Of a stretch of DNA of 64,000 nucleotides, positions 85 to 6,535 are shown in pieces. A program made the position numbers and the translations under genes. Source of the DNA: Thalassotalea sp. HSM 43 (GTDB lineage: Bacteria; Pseudomonadota; Gammaproteobacteria; Enterobacterales; Alteromonadaceae); assembly GCF_004752005.1 (NCBI RefSeq), contig NZ_CP038493.1:2752302-2816301 (forward strand), read 5' to 3'. Each line of letters begins with the position of its first letter. The first letter of the stretch is position 1. A model generated the notes under the pieces. It was not told where the DNA came from. It saw only the letters and a program-made list of their open reading frames with translations, and searched no databases.

Positions 85-181
85 TAACGCCCAAATAAGG
101 GGCTGATTAACTGTTGGCTAAAATGTGTAGCGAAGCGAAACCGAGCCAACTGTAAAAATTCCCGCTTTAACTGCTTGTTAT
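85..181 (-). repeat. attC recombination site 1 (farthest from attI)
   Basis: It runs from TAACGCC to TTGTTAT on the plus strand and encloses an imperfect inverted repeat (GTTGGCTAAAAT paired with GAGCCAAC). The boundaries and the central GGCTAAAAT...AGCC arms recur at every cassette junction here. This is the attC of the ankyrin cassette, whose stop codon lies inside its right end. Confidence 0.9.
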
Positions 182-513
182 ATGTACTTTACTACTGACA
201 TTATTGTTTTAAAAGGCTCTAATGTCATACCTTTAAAATCACCCGCAAACATTGCAATGTGATATGCATCATAACCGAAATTATCTTTCAGTTTGAGATC
301 AGCACCTTTTGATACAAGTAATTTGACAACTTCAATATGACCTGTACGACTAGCAACAATAAGAGCAGTAACCCCGTTTGCATCAGATACATTAATATCA
401 CAACCTAAAGCTAAGGCTTCATTAACAAGAGCTCTATCACCATTAGCAGAAAAACGAATAATATCGATATTTTGCTCAGGTGATTTAGGTTTTAATAGTG
501 GGAAATTGCGCAA
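178..513 (-). CDS. Cassette gene: small ankyrin-repeat protein
   Basis: A 111-aa cytoplasmic protein with two clear ankyrin repeats and probably a degenerate one on either side. The motifs NGVTALIVASRTGHIEVVKLLVS and GADLKLKDNFGYDAYHIAMFAG, about residues 46-90, show the usual helix-turn-helix pattern. Ankyrin repeats mediate protein-protein contacts; the partner is unknown. The start is a TTG at 511-513, preceded by AGGA with 6-nt spacing, and no in-frame ATG lies nearby. The TAA stop falls inside the attC core, so the attC supplies the end of the gene. Its length suits a single-gene cassette. Confidence 0.8.
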   Translation of the reverse strand: MRNFPLLKPKSPEQNIDIIRFSANGDRALVNEALALGCDINVSDANGVTALIVASRTGHIEVVKLLVSKGADLKLKDNFGYDAYHIAMFAGDFKGMTLEPFKTIMSVVKYI

Positions 514-530
514 TTACTATCCTGTACATA

Positions 531-627
531 TAACGCCCCGCTAAGGGGAAATTTATAAGTTGGCTAAAATAACGAACGGAGTGAGAAAAAGCCAACTGTA
601 AATTTTCCCACTTGAGCGACTTGTTAT
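531..627 (-). repeat. attC recombination site 2
   Basis: It runs from TAACGCC to TTGTTAT with internal arms GTTGGCTAAAAT and AGCCAAC. It is the attC of the 133-aa cassette, whose TAA stop lies in the TTGTTAT core. Confidence 0.9.
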
Positions 628-1025
628 ATGCCTTTTTGCCAAACTTTTAACGTATACGGCTCCGCAACATCTGAAGTTTCAAAGTTAATATTTTTAATTA
701 ACTCATTAAGTTTGACATCGTGAATGATGCAACCAAACGGAAGCTTTCCATGGGACTCACTTACCGCCGATATCCTAATCTGCCCAGCCATATCATCGAA
801 CCACGAGTAAAAGATCATGGTTTTTTTCGTATTTTTTGAATTAAACAGTTCGGCACATTTACCAATGAAATCTTCAAGAGAGCCACGCCCCCATTCTTTA
901 AGCAAGCTTTCGTTAATTCCAAAGGTTACTAAATTTGAATTAGCTTCTTCATTAATGTCAGTTGACTGGACTATTTCTGTTTCAACCTCTAGTTCATTGA
1001 GCCATTGATTTAGAGTGGTATGCAT
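624..1025 (-). CDS. Cassette gene: hypothetical protein, 133 aa
   Basis: I do not recognise this protein. It is acidic, with no signal peptide or membrane helix, and looks cytoplasmic with mixed alpha/beta character. It contains one GRGS segment and two cysteines. The ATG is preceded by GAGGAA at a 2-3 nt spacing. A shorter ATG that forms at the attC junction hits a stop after two codons, so it is not the start. The stop codon is the TAA within the attC core. It is a lone gene between two attC sites, as expected for a cassette. Confidence 0.75.
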   Translation of the reverse strand: MHTTLNQWLNELEVETEIVQSTDINEEANSNLVTFGINESLLKEWGRGSLEDFIGKCAELFNSKNTKKTMIFYSWFDDMAGQIRISAVSESHGKLPFGCIIHDVKLNELIKNINFETSDVAEPYTLKVWQKGI

Positions 1026-1041
1026 AATTCCTCAAGGCATA

Positions 1042-1142
1042 TAACGCCTCGATAAGAGGCAATAAAATAATTGGTTATACTTTAGCGAGGTACGAGCGCC
1101 AAGCCAATGATTTTATGTCCTTTTACTTCATCGACTTGTTAG
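1042..1142 (-). repeat. attC recombination site 3
   Basis: It runs from TAACGCC to TTGTTAG. The internal arms (TTGGTTATAC and AAGCCAATG) differ slightly from the usual GGCTAAAAT type. It belongs to the left copy of the duplicated 434-bp cassette and matches the attC at 1476-1576. Confidence 0.9.
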
Positions 1143-1144
1143 GG

Positions 1145-1465
1145 TTAATCTACCACCGCGGTATTGATTATGAAATTACAGAAACGCCGAATATTATGAT
1201 TACTGTTACTTTCTAATGCTTTAACCTTAAGTAAATACCCTTCAATATATGCCGATAAATTAGGGTATTCGTACCAATCTAATTTTGCTTTCCCCGCCAC
1301 CGAATCTGATAACCTTTTAATTGCTAACTCTGCGTTGTGTTTCGTAAAGTCACTTTCTTTCCACTGGTGATCAGGCTCAATCTTATTTTCGTATTTACCG
1401 CAAAGTTCTACCGTGTATCCGGGGAGAGATAGAAGAATGATAAAGGCAGTTATAAGCGATTTCAT
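1145..1465 (-). CDS. Cassette gene: predicted secreted protein, copy A
   Basis: A 106-aa protein with a clear N-terminal signal peptide (MKSLITAFIILLSLPGYTVE), probably cleaved near residues 18-19. The mature part is about 88 residues, with two cysteines (CGKYENK and RRFCNF) that could pair in the periplasm. I do not recognise the family. The ATG is preceded by TTAGGG at about 6-nt spacing; that GGG comes from the attC flank, so the attC may supply the ribosome binding site. The gene is identical to the one at 1579-1899. Confidence 0.75.
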   Translation of the reverse strand: MKSLITAFIILLSLPGYTVELCGKYENKIEPDHQWKESDFTKHNAELAIKRLSDSVAGKAKLDWYEYPNLSAYIEGYLLKVKALESNSNHNIRRFCNFIINTAVVD

Positions 1466-1475
1466 GAATTAACCC

Positions 1476-1576
1476 TAACGCCTCGATAAGAGGCAATAAA
1501 ATAATTGGTTATACTTTAGCGAGGTACGAGCGCCAAGCCAATGATTTTATGTCCTTTTACTTCATCGACTTGTTAG
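1476..1576 (-). repeat. attC recombination site 4
   Basis: An identical copy of attC site 3, from TAACGCC to TTGTTAG, belonging to the right copy of the duplicated cassette. Confidence 0.9.
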
Positions 1577-1578
1577 GG

Positions 1579-1899
1579 TTAATCTACCACCGCGGTATTG
1601 ATTATGAAATTACAGAAACGCCGAATATTATGATTACTGTTACTTTCTAATGCTTTAACCTTAAGTAAATACCCTTCAATATATGCCGATAAATTAGGGT
1701 ATTCGTACCAATCTAATTTTGCTTTCCCCGCCACCGAATCTGATAACCTTTTAATTGCTAACTCTGCGTTGTGTTTCGTAAAGTCACTTTCTTTCCACTG
1801 GTGATCAGGCTCAATCTTATTTTCGTATTTACCGCAAAGTTCTACCGTGTATCCGGGGAGAGATAGAAGAATGATAAAGGCAGTTATAAGCGATTTCAT
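1579..1899 (-). CDS. Cassette gene: predicted secreted protein, copy B
   Basis: Identical in sequence to the protein at 1145-1465: 106 aa, signal peptide, two cysteines in the mature part, unknown family. Its promoter-proximal position relative to copy A means it would be read first by transcription entering from attI. Two identical copies could raise dosage or simply reflect a recent, neutral duplication. Confidence 0.75.
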   Translation of the reverse strand: MKSLITAFIILLSLPGYTVELCGKYENKIEPDHQWKESDFTKHNAELAIKRLSDSVAGKAKLDWYEYPNLSAYIEGYLLKVKALESNSNHNIRRFCNFIINTAVVD

Positions 1900-1909
1900 G
1901 AATTAACCC

Positions 1910-2005
1910 TAACGCCGCAATAAGCGGAGAGTAATAGTTTGCTATAATGTGAAACGAAGTGGAACCGAGCAAACTGTTACGAATCCGACTTTATTGCCTT
2001 GTTAT
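1910..2005 (-). repeat. attC recombination site 5
   Basis: It runs from TAACGCC to TTGTTAT with arms GTTTGCTATAAT and GAGCAAAC. The arms keep the general attC shape with a base change paired on both sides (GGCT to TGCT, AGCC to AGCA). Such compensation indicates that the folded single strand, not the sequence, is conserved. Confidence 0.9.
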
Positions 2006-2411
2006 ATTCTATTGGGTAAATGACCTCAATACCGCATTCTGCTCCATATGATCCAGTAACGTAGCTATCGGAAGATAAATCTGCACTAATCGAGTATGAA
2101 ACAAAAACTTTATTATCTTCTTGGGTGGTTGCTAAGGGAATTAATAATTCAGGTTTGTCCCAATTATTCCCTTTTAATAGCAACGCACCATGAAATTTTT
2201 TGCCTTCAACTTTCGTTGGAAAGCTAACAGTAACAAAAAAATCAGAGCCGTATGCATCAACCGTAATGTTGATTAAGTCTTGATATTCATCGCTCCACTT
2301 TTTTAAGTCATCCTTAGCGACATAACAAGAGCTTGAATAACTTGAAGCACTATATAAAGCAAAAAATAGTAATAAGGCAAATCTTCTCAATTGTTGCACC
2401 AAACTCTGCAT
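1977..2411 (-). CDS. Cassette gene: predicted secreted protein, 144 aa
   Basis: The protein begins with a positively charged segment and a hydrophobic stretch (RRFALLLFFALYSASSYSSS), a typical signal peptide ending near residue 27. The mature part has beta-strand character and two cysteines (SCYVAKDD and AECGIE). No family is recognised. The ATG lies a few bases from the attC end with no visible ribosome binding site. The frame reads through the attC core into the attC and ends at 1977, so the last codons are attC sequence. Confidence 0.7.
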   Translation of the reverse strand: MQSLVQQLRRFALLLFFALYSASSYSSSCYVAKDDLKKWSDEYQDLINITVDAYGSDFFVTVSFPTKVEGKKFHGALLLKGNNWDKPELLIPLATTQEDNKVFVSYSISADLSSDSYVTGSYGAECGIEVIYPIEYNKAIKSDS

Positions 2412-2417
2412 AGAATA

Positions 2418-2515
2418 TAACGCCCTGTTAAGGGGCTGATTAATGTTTGGCTAAAATGTGTAGCGGAGCGAAACTGAGCCAAACTTTAGCAGTCCCGTCT
2501 TAAACAGCTTGTTAT
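2418..2515 (-). repeat. attC recombination site 6
   Basis: It runs from TAACGCC to TTGTTAT with arms TTTGGCTAAAAT and GAGCCAAAC. It is the attC of the 124-aa secreted-protein cassette. Confidence 0.9.
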
Positions 2516-2562
2516 ATGGAATTACAAACCAAGCTCAAGGAACGTTTCTCTTAGCTCTTGGT

Positions 2563-2937
2563 TTAACTCAGGTCTACTGCTAGTGGGTGTGTTGCAAGCT
2601 TTTGCTTAATGGCAGTAAATGATTTTTTTATATTATCATCCAGTTTCTCATACTTGAGAATAGAGTTAATTTTAATTAATAAATTTGCATCCAAGACCCT
2701 CTGAGAAGTGATAGCACCTTCATCGATAAGTAGTTCTCTTAAGTTTAAATCTGAATCTATATTATCCATTTCCATTAAAATAATGTGACGATGAAAGTCT
2801 TTAGTTATTTCAGTGTTATACCGCTCAACATCAGGTTTACATGCTTCATCAACATCTTGTAAGAATGTTGTGATTTTTGGAACTACTGTTGCATTTACAT
2901 TTAAAGAAATTAACACCAAAACCAAAAGTAATCGCAT
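2563..2937 (-). CDS. Cassette gene: predicted secreted protein, 124 aa
   Basis: A short signal peptide (MRLLLVLVLISLNVNA) is followed by a mostly helical, charged mature part of about 108 residues with a single cysteine. No family is recognised. A good AAGGAG lies 7 nt before the ATG, so this cassette carries its own ribosome binding site. The stop lies 47 bp short of the attC core, leaving a short untranslated stretch at 2516-2562. Confidence 0.75.
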   Translation of the reverse strand: MRLLLVLVLISLNVNATVVPKITTFLQDVDEACKPDVERYNTEITKDFHRHIILMEMDNIDSDLNLRELLIDEGAITSQRVLDANLLIKINSILKYEKLDDNIKKSFTAIKQKLATHPLAVDLS

Positions 2938-2954
2938 AATGTGCTCCTTGCATA

Positions 2955-3053
2955 TAACGCCATGATAAGAGGCGTATTAATGTTGGCTAAAATCTGTGAG
3001 GAACGAACATCTAGCCAACGTTTAGACATCCTTATCCTTTATCATCTTGTCAT
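2955..3053 (-). repeat. attC recombination site 7 with altered core
   Basis: The left boundary TAACGCC is normal and the arms GTTGGCTAAAAT and TAGCCAAC are present. The right core, however, reads TTGTCAT instead of TTGTTAT. This T-to-C change lies next to the conserved core bases and could weaken integrase recognition. Confidence 0.85.
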
Positions 3054-3057
3054 ATTT

Positions 3058-3447
3058 CTATTGTGCAGCTCTATAAAAAAACCAACAACCACATGCTACC
3101 CATACTGCAAAGTACAACATAAATAGATAGCCTAGAAATGAACCGCCCATAATTAATGCATAAATAGAAACCACCAAAGCAGAAACCAGTAGTAGATTAA
3201 TTAAGTTAAACTTACCAAGTTTTTCCAATAAAACACTACATGGTAATCCAATAATTAAAGTAACAGGATAAGCGATTAGCAGGCCGAAAATAATAAATAA
3301 CGGTGCTACTGAACCTTGATCGTAGTTAGCTACGGGATCAATAAATTTAAAAGCAACCGCATACAATATCGTTGCAGGAATAACAGCTAATGGCCCTAAC
3401 AAAAATGCCAGTAGATTTTTTCTGAATAGATCGCCAAATGTTCTCAT
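3058..3447 (-). CDS. Cassette gene: small integral membrane protein
   Basis: A 129-aa protein with four predicted membrane helices (around LLAFLLGPLAVIPATILYAV, PLFIIFGLLIAYPVTLIIGL, LINLLLVSALVVSIYALIM and GYLFMLYFAVWVACGCWFF). A longer reading frame extends into the attC, but the ATG at 3445-3447 gives a protein that fits inside the cassette. No ribosome binding site is visible before that ATG, which lies 7 bp from the attC. Function unknown; it could sit in the inner membrane as a small channel-like or sensory protein. Confidence 0.7.
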   Translation of the reverse strand: MRTFGDLFRKNLLAFLLGPLAVIPATILYAVAFKFIDPVANYDQGSVAPLFIIFGLLIAYPVTLIIGLPCSVLLEKLGKFNLINLLLVSALVVSIYALIMGGSFLGYLFMLYFAVWVACGCWFFYRAAQ

Positions 3448-3453
3448 GAAATA

Positions 3454-3548
3454 TAACGCCCCAATAAGCGGCGGATAACAGTTGGCTATAATTGTGAACG
3501 AAGTGAACGCAGCCAACTGTTAGGCGTCCGACTTGATTAACTTGTTAT
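3454..3548 (-). repeat. attC recombination site 8
   Basis: It runs from TAACGCC to TTGTTAT with arms GTTGGCTATAAT and AGCCAAC, at the same spacing as its neighbours. Confidence 0.9.
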
Positions 3549-3997
3549 ACGACGAATTGCACCTTAAAACACTCGATATCAGTTTCAATGTCTTCAAGAA
3601 TCTCTAAGTCAGTTTCAGTACCCGCACTTTTTAATTGATTAACCCAATTCTCATATAAATTAATTACAGCGTTCTTTTCTTGAGGCACCCAAGTTTCTAT
3701 CTTGGCATATTCAAGCTTGGATAGAAACAGACCGAAATCATAAGGTGCATTCCAATAGTCCGAGATATACAACTCAAATATTCTAGGCAAGAAATGTTTA
3801 AAGTCTTCAACATCGCCAAATGTAGTCATAGATTTAAAAACGAATATCTGCAAGTCATCCCAAGAAAGCAAACCAAGTGCTTTCGAATGAAGGCTCGTTT
3901 CTGCATTTTCGAGTTCACAGTGTGGGCAGCCTTCAATTTTTTCTTTTAAAGGATACTTCTTAAACTCATGGTATATATTTTGAAAGTCTATACTCAT
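3545..3997 (-). CDS. Cassette gene: hypothetical protein with CxxC
   Basis: A 150-aa soluble acidic protein. A CPHC motif near residues 24-27 could bind metal or be redox active, but no partner pair is obvious. The aromatic-rich centre (FELYISDYWNAPYDFGLFLSKLEY) suggests a helical fold. I do not recognise the family. The ATG is preceded by a weak AGAG, and the TAA stop is the one provided by the attC core at 3545-3547. Confidence 0.7.
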   Translation of the reverse strand: MSIDFQNIYHEFKKYPLKEKIEGCPHCELENAETSLHSKALGLLSWDDLQIFVFKSMTTFGDVEDFKHFLPRIFELYISDYWNAPYDFGLFLSKLEYAKIETWVPQEKNAVINLYENWVNQLKSAGTETDLEILEDIETDIECFKVQFVV

Positions 3998-4012
3998 CTC
4001 TGACTAGTCGTA

Positions 4013-4109
4013 TAACGCCCCAATAAGGGGCTGATAATGCTTGGCTATGCTGTGTAGCGCAGCGGAACCAAGCCAAGCTTTAGCAGTCCCGCCTTAATTG
4101 GCTTGTTAT
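4013..4109 (-). repeat. attC recombination site 9
   Basis: It runs from TAACGCC to TTGTTAT with arms CTTGGCTATGC and AAGCCAAG. Confidence 0.9.
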
Positions 4110-4477
4110 ATTTCGTTTTCAAAAAATCGTGTGATGTATGAACCTATTGTTCTATCAAGTTTAACCAATTCAGCTTTAGGTACATGATTTACAAAACGAG
4201 ACTCTGCTACGCCACCATTTAATGCTAGTTCTCGTAAAACCTCTTTCACCATTCGTTCTTTTGGTAAGCCTCTAGACAATACATTTAGTCGAGCACTGAT
4301 AGAACTATGAATAACGGGGCGATCAAAACGTGAATTTGAAAATAATTCTGCTCCGAGAACAACTTGATTTATTTGATTTTTCCACTCTTTGGGCACTAGG
4401 GCAAAGATTTTTTTAACGTCCTTAGCTGTTAGAGAGTGGTAAGGCTCTTTGTTTAACCTTGCTACAACTATTTTCAC
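4106..4477 (-). CDS. Cassette gene: hypothetical basic protein, 123 aa
   Basis: An unrecognised soluble protein, rich in lysine and arginine, with predicted helices and no cysteines, signal peptide or membrane segment. The GTG at 4475-4477 is preferred as start because GGGGAG lies 4 nt upstream; a TTG one codon earlier would be too close to it. The stop is the TAA in the attC core. Its basic charge would allow nucleic acid binding, but no known domain is visible. Confidence 0.65.
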   Translation of the reverse strand: MKIVVARLNKEPYHSLTAKDVKKIFALVPKEWKNQINQVVLGAELFSNSRFDRPVIHSSISARLNVLSRGLPKERMVKEVLRELALNGGVAESRFVNHVPKAELVKLDRTIGSYITRFFENEI

Positions 4478-4495
4478 CAAACTCCCCTAGAAATA

Positions 4496-4590
4496 TAACG
4501 CCCTGTTAACAGGCAAAATATAGTTGGCTAAAATAAGCGACCAAGGAGCAAAAGCCAACTGTATTTTGTCCTTGTTTAACAGCTTGTTAT
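4496..4590 (-). repeat. attC recombination site 10
   Basis: It runs from TAACGCC to TTGTTAT with arms GTTGGCTAAAAT and AAGCCAAC. It is identical to the attC at 4882-4976. Confidence 0.9.
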
Positions 4591-4880
4591 ATGCACTTTT
4601 CAATTTTTAATCGGTGCTTTTTACAAGCCTGACCTAATTTACAAACTTTACTTGGCCAATCCCAGCCTTCAAAAGACTCTAGATAAAGATCCCCAAAAGC
4701 TTTCACATGACACAAGCCTTCGATCTCATTTAAAGCATTAATTTGATTGTCAGCTTGGTCAAGCAAATCTATTTGAGACTCAAGCATTAAAGCTTGTTCT
4801 AATAGATCATGCGTTCGCAAGTCTAAAGCAATTTCTGTGGCTAGTGATTTAATAGATTCGAGCATACTTTCCATGTGCAT
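4587..4880 (-). CDS. Cassette gene: hypothetical helical protein, copy A
   Basis: A 97-aa (or 95-aa, from the second ATG) soluble protein dominated by amphipathic helices (MLESIKSLATEIALDLRTHDLLEQ), with three cysteines towards the C terminus. No family is recognised. The first ATG arises at the attC junction (TTATATG) and has no ribosome binding site. The second ATG two codons on gives MESMLES. The stop TAA lies within the attC core. It is identical to the gene at 4973-5266. Confidence 0.7.
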   Translation of the reverse strand: MHMESMLESIKSLATEIALDLRTHDLLEQALMLESQIDLLDQADNQINALNEIEGLCHVKAFGDLYLESFEGWDWPSKVCKLGQACKKHRLKIEKCI

Positions 4881-4881
4881 A

Positions 4882-4976
4882 TAACGCCCTGTTAACAGGC
4901 AAAATATAGTTGGCTAAAATAAGCGACCAAGGAGCAAAAGCCAACTGTATTTTGTCCTTGTTTAACAGCTTGTTAT
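4882..4976 (-). repeat. attC recombination site 11 (nearest attI)
   Basis: It runs from TAACGCC to TTGTTAT, identical to attC site 10. It belongs to the first cassette of the array. Confidence 0.9.
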
Positions 4977-5266
4977 ATGCACTTTTCAATTTTTAATCGG
5001 TGCTTTTTACAAGCCTGACCTAATTTACAAACTTTACTTGGCCAATCCCAGCCTTCAAAAGACTCTAGATAAAGATCCCCAAAAGCTTTCACATGACACA
5101 AGCCTTCGATCTCATTTAAAGCATTAATTTGATTGTCAGCTTGGTCAAGCAAATCTATTTGAGACTCAAGCATTAAAGCTTGTTCTAATAGATCATGCGT
5201 TCGCAAGTCTAAAGCAATTTCTGTGGCTAGTGATTTAATAGATTCGAGCATACTTTCCATGTGCAT
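4973..5266 (-). CDS. Cassette gene: hypothetical helical protein, copy B (first in array)
   Basis: The same protein as at 4587-4880. It directly follows attI, so it is the cassette most likely to be expressed from any cassette promoter located in the attI/intI region. Its start codon is formed where the cassette joins attI (TTATATG on the minus strand). Translation may therefore rely on leaderless initiation or on a signal supplied by attI; none is evident. Confidence 0.7.
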   Translation of the reverse strand: MHMESMLESIKSLATEIALDLRTHDLLEQALMLESQIDLLDQADNQINALNEIEGLCHVKAFGDLYLESFEGWDWPSKVCKLGQACKKHRLKIEKCI

Positions 5267-5335
5267 ATAACAGTATATTATGTAGCCGGCTCTATAATGT
5301 CCGGTTCATAATTGTTTTAATATAAAGCGTTAATA
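5265..5335 (-). other. attI, primary cassette insertion site
   Basis: The array changes from cassette to non-cassette sequence at about 5268-5271, where the plus strand reads GCATATAACAG instead of the attC TAACGCC. This is the place and orientation expected for attI: between the first cassette and a divergently read integrase gene. The inner limit is an estimate, because attI accessory integrase sites cannot be defined by eye. The degenerate palindrome around AGCCGGCT (5284-5291) lies inside. Confidence 0.75.
5278..5297. repeat. Degenerate third copy of the GAGCCGGCTC palindrome
   Basis: TTATGTAGCCGGCTCTATAA shares the AGCCGGCT centre and the outer TTA/TAA of the two perfect palindromes downstream, with two mismatched pairs. 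It is followed by ATGTCC, like the copy at 5396-5415. Confidence 0.6.
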
Positions 5336-5395
5336 TCACATAAATTCAATAGCTTAAAAAGAGGTTTTAGGTTCCTTTTTTTATTTTTTGAGAAT

Positions 5396-5415
5396 TTACT
5401 GAGCCGGCTCAGTAA
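5396..5415. repeat. Perfect 20-bp palindrome, copy 1
   Basis: TTACTGAGCCGGCTCAGTAA is its own reverse complement. It is followed by TGTCC. Its centre is about 118 bp from the degenerate copy at attI and 94 bp from the second perfect copy. Such symmetry suggests a dimeric protein binding site or a folded site. Confidence 0.8.
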
Positions 5416-5489
5416 TGTCCTTTCTTTAAGTTTTAATAATTTTACATATTTTCAAATGCTTATCTGCTTGTTTGGGTTGGATAGATAAT

Positions 5490-5509
5490 TTACTGAGCCG
5501 GCTCAGTAA
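5490..5509. repeat. Perfect 20-bp palindrome, copy 2
   Basis: The same 20-bp palindrome as at 5396-5415, followed by CGTC. It ends 8 bp before the proposed -35 of the integrase promoter, so a protein bound here could affect intI transcription. Confidence 0.8.
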
Positions 5510-5517
5510 CGTCTTAT

Positions 5518-5561
5518 TTGTGGTTCTAGCTAAATATTACCTATACTGTTTATTTATACAG
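5518..5561 (+). promoter_or_regulatory. intI promoter with overlapping LexA box
   Basis: A plausible -35 TTGTGG (5518-5523) and -10 TATACT (5542-5547) are separated by 18 bp. The sequence CTGTTTATTTATACAG at 5546-5561 matches the gammaproteobacterial LexA consensus CTGT-N8-ACAG and overlaps the -10 and start region. SOS control of integron integrases is established in Vibrio and class 1 integrons. The recA box in this window (60932-60947) has the same form. Confidence 0.85.
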
Positions 5562-5572
5562 TTGGAGGGTGT

Positions 5573-6535
5573 GTGAGCAAATCACCATTTCTTGAATCAA
5601 TTCGACAAATTTTAAGAACTAAGCACTACAGTATTCAAACTGAAAAGGCTTATTTAGTCTGGATTAAGCGTTTTATCTTGTTTAACAATAAGCGTCACCC
5701 TAAAGATATGGGGGAGCAAGAGGTCAGTGCCTTTTTAACCTATTTGGCTGTCAATCGCAGGGTGACATCTTCTACGCAAAACTTGGCTTTGTGTGCGATT
5801 GTGTTTATGTACAAGCATGTCTTTAATCGCGAGTTGACGTTACTCGATGAAACCGTTAGAGCGAAGCCACCTAAGCGCGTGCCAACGGTCTTATCGAAAG
5901 AAGAAGCAAAAAGAATTATAAGCAAGATGAAATTTCCTTATACCTTAATGTTTAGCCTATTGTTTGGTTCAGGAATGCGCAAAGCTGAATTACTACGCTT
6001 GCGAATCAAAGATATCGATTTTTCTGCGCAGTCTATTTATGTTTTTCGCGGTAAAGGTCGCAAGGATAGGGTAACGGTGCTACCTAGCTCACTAATTGAT
6101 GATGTAAAACTCCAAATCGAGAAAGTGAAAAAAGTACATGCTAAAGATCTTGCTGAAGGCGAGGGCAAAACCAGTTTACCAATAGGGCTGGCAAGAAAGT
6201 ATCCGTATGTAATCACTGATTTAAAATGGCAATACCTGTTTCCGGCCTCGGTTCGTTGTAAGCATCCGACCGATGGTTATTTTTGTCGTCATCATTTGCA
6301 CTGGACAGCTTTGTCCAAAGTACTTCGTGCTGCTGTGCGTGAAGCGGATGTACACAAGCATGTTACTGCCCATACCTTTCGACACAGTTTTGCCACTCAA
6401 TTACTCTTAAATGGCACCGATATTCGCACGGTACAAGAATTACTCGGTCATTCCGATTTGAAAACCACACAAATATATACGCATGTTATAGGTCAGCATT
6501 CATCAGGAATACGCAGCCCAATTGATAGCGCTTAG
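5573..6535 (+). CDS. intI: Integron integrase (tyrosine recombinase)
   Basis: A 320-aa site-specific recombinase that inserts and excises cassettes at attI and attC. The N-terminal SAM-like core-binding domain spans about 1-95 ([18 protein letters not shown]). The catalytic domain carries R136 (GSGMRKAE), K161 (GKGRKDR), H267 and R270 (HTFRHSF), H293 ([10 protein letters not shown]) and nucleophile Y302 (IYTHV). An extra segment around residues 190-245, including KWQYLFPA, is the patch that distinguishes IntI from XerC/D. The length equals that of Vibrio-type integrases. The start is GTG; GGAGGG lies only 3 nt upstream. The enzyme looks intact, and the array reads divergently from it in the standard layout. 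Confidence 0.97.

Follow-up and report, generated by a model that had tools for sequence, protein, structure and literature searches.

Which role do the palindromes have that stand between the attI site and the integrase gene in Thalassotalea sp. HSM 43? The window, i.e., the whole stretch of 64,000 nucleotides that was analysed, carries an integron with intI, a crossover triplet and cassettes on the minus strand. Coordinates are positions within the window unless a locus or contig is named. The following parts were identified:

178–5266, minus strand: cassette side, ORFs with attC-like repeats between them (ORF list, sequence)
4973–5266, minus strand: first cassette ORF
5269–5271, no strand assigned: attI crossover triplet AAC (minus strand: GTT) (sequence)
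5278–5297, no strand assigned: palindrome 1, degenerate, overlapping attI, TTATGTAG-CCGG-CTCTATAA
5344–5356, plus strand: IHF-like site 1, ATTCAATAGCTTA, one mismatch to WATCAANNNNTTR, which we take to be the IHF consensus (consensus match)
5396–5415, no strand assigned: palindrome 2, perfect
5450–5462, plus strand: IHF-like site 2, TTTCAAATGCTTA, one mismatch (consensus match)
5490–5509, no strand assigned: palindrome 3, perfect, closest to intI
5546–5561, no strand assigned: LexA box CTGTTTATTTATACAG, exact (motif match)
5573–6535, plus strand: intI, integron integrase of 320 amino acids (TIGR02249, 415.7 bits, cut-off 265)

The attI site is placed between intI and the cassette array and has an AAC/GTT crossover, which a 13-bp profile located at the equivalent place in relatives. 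The attC-like repeats of the cassette side were judged by eye from position 3500 rightward. The LexA box overlaps the end of a −10-like TATACT (5542–5547, by eye); the LexA motif was used as in the accessible part of PMC3108266. Two pairs of cassettes have identical predicted proteins: 4587–4880 and 4973–5266 (97 amino acids) as well as 1145–1465 and 1579–1899 (106 amino acids).

The preliminary description had reported a 20-bp palindrome that occurs in two perfect copies and in a third, degenerate one at attI, with spacings of 118 and 94 bp. Coordinates and shuffles bear this out. TTACTGAGCCGGCTCAGTAA is present at 5396–5415 and 5490–5509 with 0 mismatches, and 100 dinucleotide shuffles of the window contained no match to it at up to three mismatches. 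The degenerate copy TTATGTAGCCGGCTCTATAA at 5278–5297 is located 9 bp inside the crossover triplet (5269–5271), and the start-to-start spacings are 118 and 94 bp. The likeness runs a few bases beyond the palindrome: over 30 nt, it is 93% between the perfect copies and 67% for the attI copy. A common dispersed repeat without a link to integrons, the finding that the preliminary description had named as its refutation, was rejected for the own genome (4.01 Mb) by a genome-wide search with the inner 16-mer, which is perfect at palindromes 2 and 3 only. With two mismatches, one further place was found, inside a second attI leader that has no integrase match within its 3 kb locus. With the centre left free, there is one additional place with one mismatch, C1:2608136, which looks unrelated to an integron by eye and has no integrase match. 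The palindromes were also rejected as LexA boxes: they do not follow the LexA operator CTGT-N8-ACAG, and a separate exact LexA box is present at 5546–5561. A serine-resolvase res site was considered on general grounds and set aside.

When 395 genomes from the family were searched, the 32 best integrase matches included 30 loci (L004–L033, the window among them). Their integrases are 70–100% identical. L029 comes without upstream DNA, and attI of L008 lies off the contig. The palindromes recur in the leaders, with 15 loci being nonredundant at 85% IntI identity. The last palindrome, the one towards intI, deviates from TTACTGAG-NNNN-CTCAGTAA at no more than 2 of 16 positions in 23 of 29 loci, at 3 in one, at 4 in two and at 5 in three. 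Offsets from the crossover are +8/9, +125 to +127 and +217 to +231 in most of the 15 nonredundant loci. Extra palindromes are located at +313/314 and +406 to +408 in four of the 15; the scan found only two palindromes in L025, L028 and L031.

Pairwise identity in the leaders of the 15 loci, all of common ancestry, is 0.83–0.85 for the arms, counting only sites with at most 5/16 mismatches from the consensus, 0.52–0.56 for the centre and 0.33–0.34 elsewhere. Taking the best place per position window without a mismatch filter, arm identities are 0.79 and 0.80. Unfiltered decoys with permuted arms (200) had means of 0.42 and 0.41; the best decoys, with arms resembling the real ones, equal 0.79–0.80. 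Fixed arms and a free centre would suit a dyad that is bound by a protein as duplex. In a sister group (13 loci, 54–60% identity), half-sites are visible by eye instead of palindromes. The repeats are a real, conserved leader architecture and probably functional, with a putative role.

A candidate ligand came from a comparison with the class 1 integron. A profile of arms and flank, CTCAGTAATATCC, was built from 83 arms and run over the class 1 attI1 region (L235). Two direct repeats take the first two ranks among 280 windows, the top window being CTCCATAACATCA and the second CTGCGTAACATCG, and their orientation to the crossover is that of the leaders. The repeats are visible in the sequence, and we take the top window to be DR2 and the second to be DR1. 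The shuffle P values of the single hits are modest (0.05 and 0.12); the chance of both repeats on top is about 3 in 100,000 by simple arithmetic, if windows are exchangeable. According to the accessible part of PMC12901181, DR1 and DR2 are bound by IntI1. The arm profile gave nothing convincing on attI2 (P 0.30) or on three Vibrio upstream regions in which attI was not located (P 0.34 or more; scan without the fourth Vibrio locus, L088).

Leaders were also compared with their own attI. The set started from 131 loci that matched intI; 82 of them reached an attI score of at least 11 between −520 and −220, and thinning at 85% reduced these to 55. In these 55 loci, the match between own attI and own leader scored 10.49, versus 7.51 for other loci below 60% identity and 7.36 for shuffled sequences; none of 20,000 permutations reached the observed value. 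A score of at least 10 was obtained for every one of the 15 clade loci, for 12 of the 27 other loci and for two of the 13 loci in the sister group (L041, L088). Upon thinning, the signal decreased from z 3.2–5.8 at 60% to 2.6–3.6 at 55% and 1.9–2.7 at 50% (4–5 loci). Two observations speak against a dyad of IntI sites: the best own-attI match of L031 is away from any palindrome, and the crossover-side arm at attI in the window, TTATGTAG, differs from TTACTGAG at three of eight positions. IntI is the likeliest ligand of the palindromes, as judged from these comparisons. Among the three roles considered in the preliminary description, accessory integrase sites have the strongest support: the arms are similar to the attI1 direct repeats, palindrome 1 shares sequence with the attI core and, over the 55 loci, leaders match their own attI better than that of other loci; the small signal in the sister group stands against it.

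Between the palindromes, IHF-like sites were found. Matches to the IHF consensus with at most one mismatch number 34 in the leaders of the window clade (15 loci; shuffled 12.3 ± 3.9), 25 in the sister group (13 loci; 11.7 ± 3.4) and 40 in other leaders (27 loci; 16.8 ± 4.4). Perfect matches are 5, 3 and 9 in the same order, versus 0.45, 0.59 and 0.59 in shuffled sequences. Controls on the cassette side gave 12 versus 8.6 ± 2.8, 13 versus 7.4 ± 2.8 and 9 versus 13.7 ± 3.1, and seven decoy consensuses reached at most 17, 21 and 24 matches in the leaders. The enrichment in the sister group appears weak, because a decoy reaches 21 versus 25 and the cassette-side control is two standard deviations above the shuffles. 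In the window clade, the matches stand roughly midway between palindromes, on the plus strand at +71 to +75 in 12 and at +178 to +181 in 8 of the 15 loci. A fixed position among kin is not independent evidence alone, but the spacer around it is near random. At the level of the consensus, IHF-like sites are fixed between the candidate recombinase sites. In the window, both sites have one mismatch each and a third match with one mismatch is located at +54, which counts against the reading with IHF bends. The genome has ihfA. IHF sites are known near class 1 promoters, as stated in the accessible part of PMC8876359.

The position of the last palindrome relative to intI tends to vary with the presence of the LexA box. 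An exact LexA box is present in 14 of 29 loci, and the last palindrome starts there at −83 to −107, counted from the start implied by the alignment. In 12 of the 15 loci without an exact box, it starts at −47 to −69, and 10 of these 12 palindromes are perfect; L025, L031 and L032 are the exceptions. To judge by eye, the promoter-proximal palindromes often directly follow a TATAAT-like hexamer. This exchange suggests that a palindrome took over intI control where the LexA box was lost, probably in one or few events; L020–L022 are near-identical.

Leaders also occur without intI. The palindrome pattern with at most one mismatch is present in 117 of 395 genomes. Single weak matches are partly due to chance, because the reversed control matches 22 of 395 genomes, once each. 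Thirty matches were fetched, 16 perfect and 14 with one mismatch. Of the perfect copies, 13 are accompanied by an integrase match or another palindrome and L062 has a clear attI; L061 and L071 hold leader remains only (by eye). Of the one-mismatch copies, seven show no sign of a leader, and the lax attI criterion means that the other seven are not all leaders. Genomes G259, G222, G007 and others contain attI and palindromes without intI at dispersed places (L181–L207), many ending in a shared sequence. These leaders accompany cassettes and are sometimes in tandem, with three in L182. G000 C1:3539100–3539400 (L003:1280–1520) is another leader without intI. The left and right ends look like imperfect inverted repeats of about 21 bp (by eye). 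Among the 30 loci, a similar end is located directly behind intI in L005 and, weaker, in L014. No clear target duplication was seen by eye in L202, L204 and L205. The intI-less leaders may be non-autonomous integron elements, possibly of transposon-like origin. Integrase fragments of the window type (65–84% identity over the best fragments) are present in G259, G247 and G322, and several genomes with intI-less leaders also encode a different full-length integrase (39–43%). G087, of the genus of the window, has four pattern matches and no integrase match. In L182 (107–1761), an intI-less element immediately follows two genes, one umuD-like (by eye) and one umuC-like, the latter with 336 bits below the curated cut-off of 431. 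L184, L190 and L199 each contain a leader with one palindrome unit fewer, in which the left flank of palindrome 2 continues directly into the right-hand flank of palindrome 3 (both by eye).

The arms are conserved in intI-less leaders as well. With at most five mismatches, 20 and 15 of 22 leaders had arm identities of 0.92 and 0.95 versus 0.48 and 0.44 in the rest. Unfiltered, all 22 leaders had 0.83 and 0.70 versus decoy means of 0.47 and 0.41. The set excludes L197 and L198, and L003 was also excluded from the arm counts. The arms seem to be kept for more than an adjacent intI promoter, or were so until recently. Control of the adjacent intI is therefore unlikely to be the whole role.

The matched 4-bp centres are a peculiarity for which a separate mechanism is needed. 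Centres of palindromes 2 and 3 of one leader agree to 0.92 in 13 intI-carrying and 0.85 in 15 intI-less leaders, versus 0.60 and 0.64 for palindrome 2 centres between leaders. The own match was better in 13 of 13 and 13 of 15 leaders, and the observed value was reached in none of 5000 permutations in each set. The agreement is blind to orientation (ACTT/AAGT). Flanks agree to 0.35 within a leader, versus 0.35 and 0.49 for orthologous flanks; the sole excess is on the inner left side of intI-less leaders (0.57 vs. 0.47), with the opposite on the right side (0.37 vs. 0.44). G222 has leaders of the CCGG and of the ACTT type in one genome, an argument against a trans-acting specificity behind the agreement. 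The palindromes of a given leader may be required to match, or else very short tracts are exchanged between them. Compared with recombinase action, template switching would be a sober alternative.

At a probability of roughly 0.6, we read the palindromes as accessory IntI-binding dyads that together with IHF form a complex, attP-like attI, and the promoter-proximal copy may control intI. Each palindrome would consist of two inverted boxes of the attI1 DR1/DR2 type, back to back and 4 bp apart, and the dyads would repeat about every 93–118 bp from attI towards intI. IntI may bind the dyads as accessory sites. Host IHF is likely to bend the DNA about halfway from one palindrome to the next, which would fold IntI on palindromes 2 and 3 back onto the attI core. 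Such a looped, attP-like attI would favour cassette capture. The copy closest to intI is placed such that the same binding could repress intI. Binding by either protein, loop formation and any influence on recombination or transcription are deduced here from the sequence features.

A rival account takes the palindromes as operators only: a repressor, IntI or a host protein, would control intI and/or the cassette promoter, and recombination would be uninvolved. Fixed arms around a free centre are a usual operator form, and the last palindrome starts at −47 to −69 in 12 of 15 LexA-less loci. We consider this account doubtful. The first copy overlaps the attI core, the arms resemble the attI1 direct repeats, and intI-less leaders keep the arms, though the cassette promoter could still be a target there. 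Unlike sites of a general host regulator, the perfect copies track leaders (13 of 16 and L062, with remains in L061 and L071), and the LexA split includes the near-identical L020–L022 and probably reflects few events. The earlier suggestion of a regulator of intI or the cassette promoter is favoured by the location at the intI promoter of LexA-less relatives, and the conserved arms of intI-less leaders stand against it as the whole role; the palindromes may serve as regulator sites for intI or Pc, perhaps in addition. Far less probable are structures formed by the strand itself, either folded single-strand hairpins like attC, as had also been proposed, or bidirectional terminators between Pc and intI. 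A perfect copy can fold into an 8-bp stem with a 4-nt loop, and a scan called three terminator-like sites versus 0.2 ± 0.5 in shuffles. The stem has only three G-C pairs, the tails are broken T runs and the attI copy is degenerate. Compensatory changes rarely restored the pairing: 226 of 272 pair positions in 34 sites have the consensus and 46 are changed. The changes were one-sided in 41 cases (31 break the pairing, 10 keep a wobble), compensatory in only four, and two-sided and broken in one, which disfavours foldable attC-like sites.

The matched centres point to another explanation, in which the palindromes are sites, or relics of sites, of strand exchange that recombine mutually, with the 4-bp centre as recombinase overlap. 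The centres of one leader agree more closely than those of different leaders and do so in either orientation, the flanks show no consistent excess within leaders, and L184, L190 and L199 have lost one unit with the junction at a palindrome (by eye). This is improbable in our view. If the arms bind IntI like the L box of attI, the cleavage edges would face outward; spacer inversions did not stand out by eye in the leaders read; and short-patch template switching, or slippage in the case of the deletions, could leave the same traces. An equally long shot is the leader as a recombination machine, in which IHF-looped palindromes would swap DNA via IntI and the 4-bp centre would be a leader-specific overlap that has to be alike at all sites of a leader. 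If the leader recombines itself, many proteobacterial integrons would have a second, double-strand system beside attI × attC, and leaders without intI would be elements that spread with the help of functions supplied in trans.

If the complex attI with accessory dyads is the correct reading, a set of chromosomal integrons, as well as at least one dfrA1 integron, possesses a long composite attI. This site may require a DNA-bending protein of the host for its activity, which would bear on the question of why some integrons need host factors for cassette capture. Cassette capture would be linked to intI control where LexA control was lost.

The dfrA1 cassette is part of a Proteus mirabilis record (L234, 930–1200) with an integrase of 74.5% identity. 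Its leader closely resembles those of L020–L022, with a palindrome 2 shorter by 2 bp. In a search of plasmid DNA with the leader, only its intI end matched. Elsewhere, 18 leaders were inspected, a nonrandom sample of 17 of 80 loci, mostly picked by a noisy repeat score, and the class 2 integron. About 10 of the 18 carry a differently spelled palindrome at attI and another one beyond it (by eye), including leaders of Thalassolituus, Bacterioplanes, Shewanella chilikensis and Amphritea. In such leaders, the own-attI match ends between +119 and +142 in most cases and near +250 in some.

A description of such palindromes was not found in the open-access library searched, with subscription papers mostly outside this scope. 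In contrast to these leaders, the accessible part of PMC10609294 on a class 4-like integron of Aeromonas reports no direct or inverted repeats. The integron of the window is like that of Vibrio cholerae in having a chromosomal attI, there attIA, beside a LexA-controlled intI; it differs in its repeats, as attIA has no DRs according to the accessible part of PMC8191803. The attI2 site is similar in having 313 bp between crossover and intI2 (L201) and a CATGC-centred palindrome at attI (by eye), and dissimilar in lacking an arm-profile match. A possible second palindrome of attI2 ends at +128; its score, taken from the similar leader L112, does not stand out from many other loci (14% equal or exceed it). 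According to the accessible part of PMC12901181, the binding sites of attI2 are not defined.

The attI1 site spans about 65 bp and has two direct repeats, as described in the accessible parts of PMC12901181 and PMC4792948. It shares with the leaders the accessory IntI boxes, putative in the latter, which flank the L/R core towards intI. Unlike in attI1, the boxes of the leaders are paired as palindromes, three to five over about 230–430 bp, with IHF-like sites between them. The insertion site looks more elaborate than a textbook attI. In the lambda attP intasome, recombinase sites are arranged at fixed spacing with IHF bends between them, and lambda Int has a separate arm-binding domain. The leaders resemble attP in their candidate recombinase sites, the IHF-like bend sites between these and the fixed spacing.
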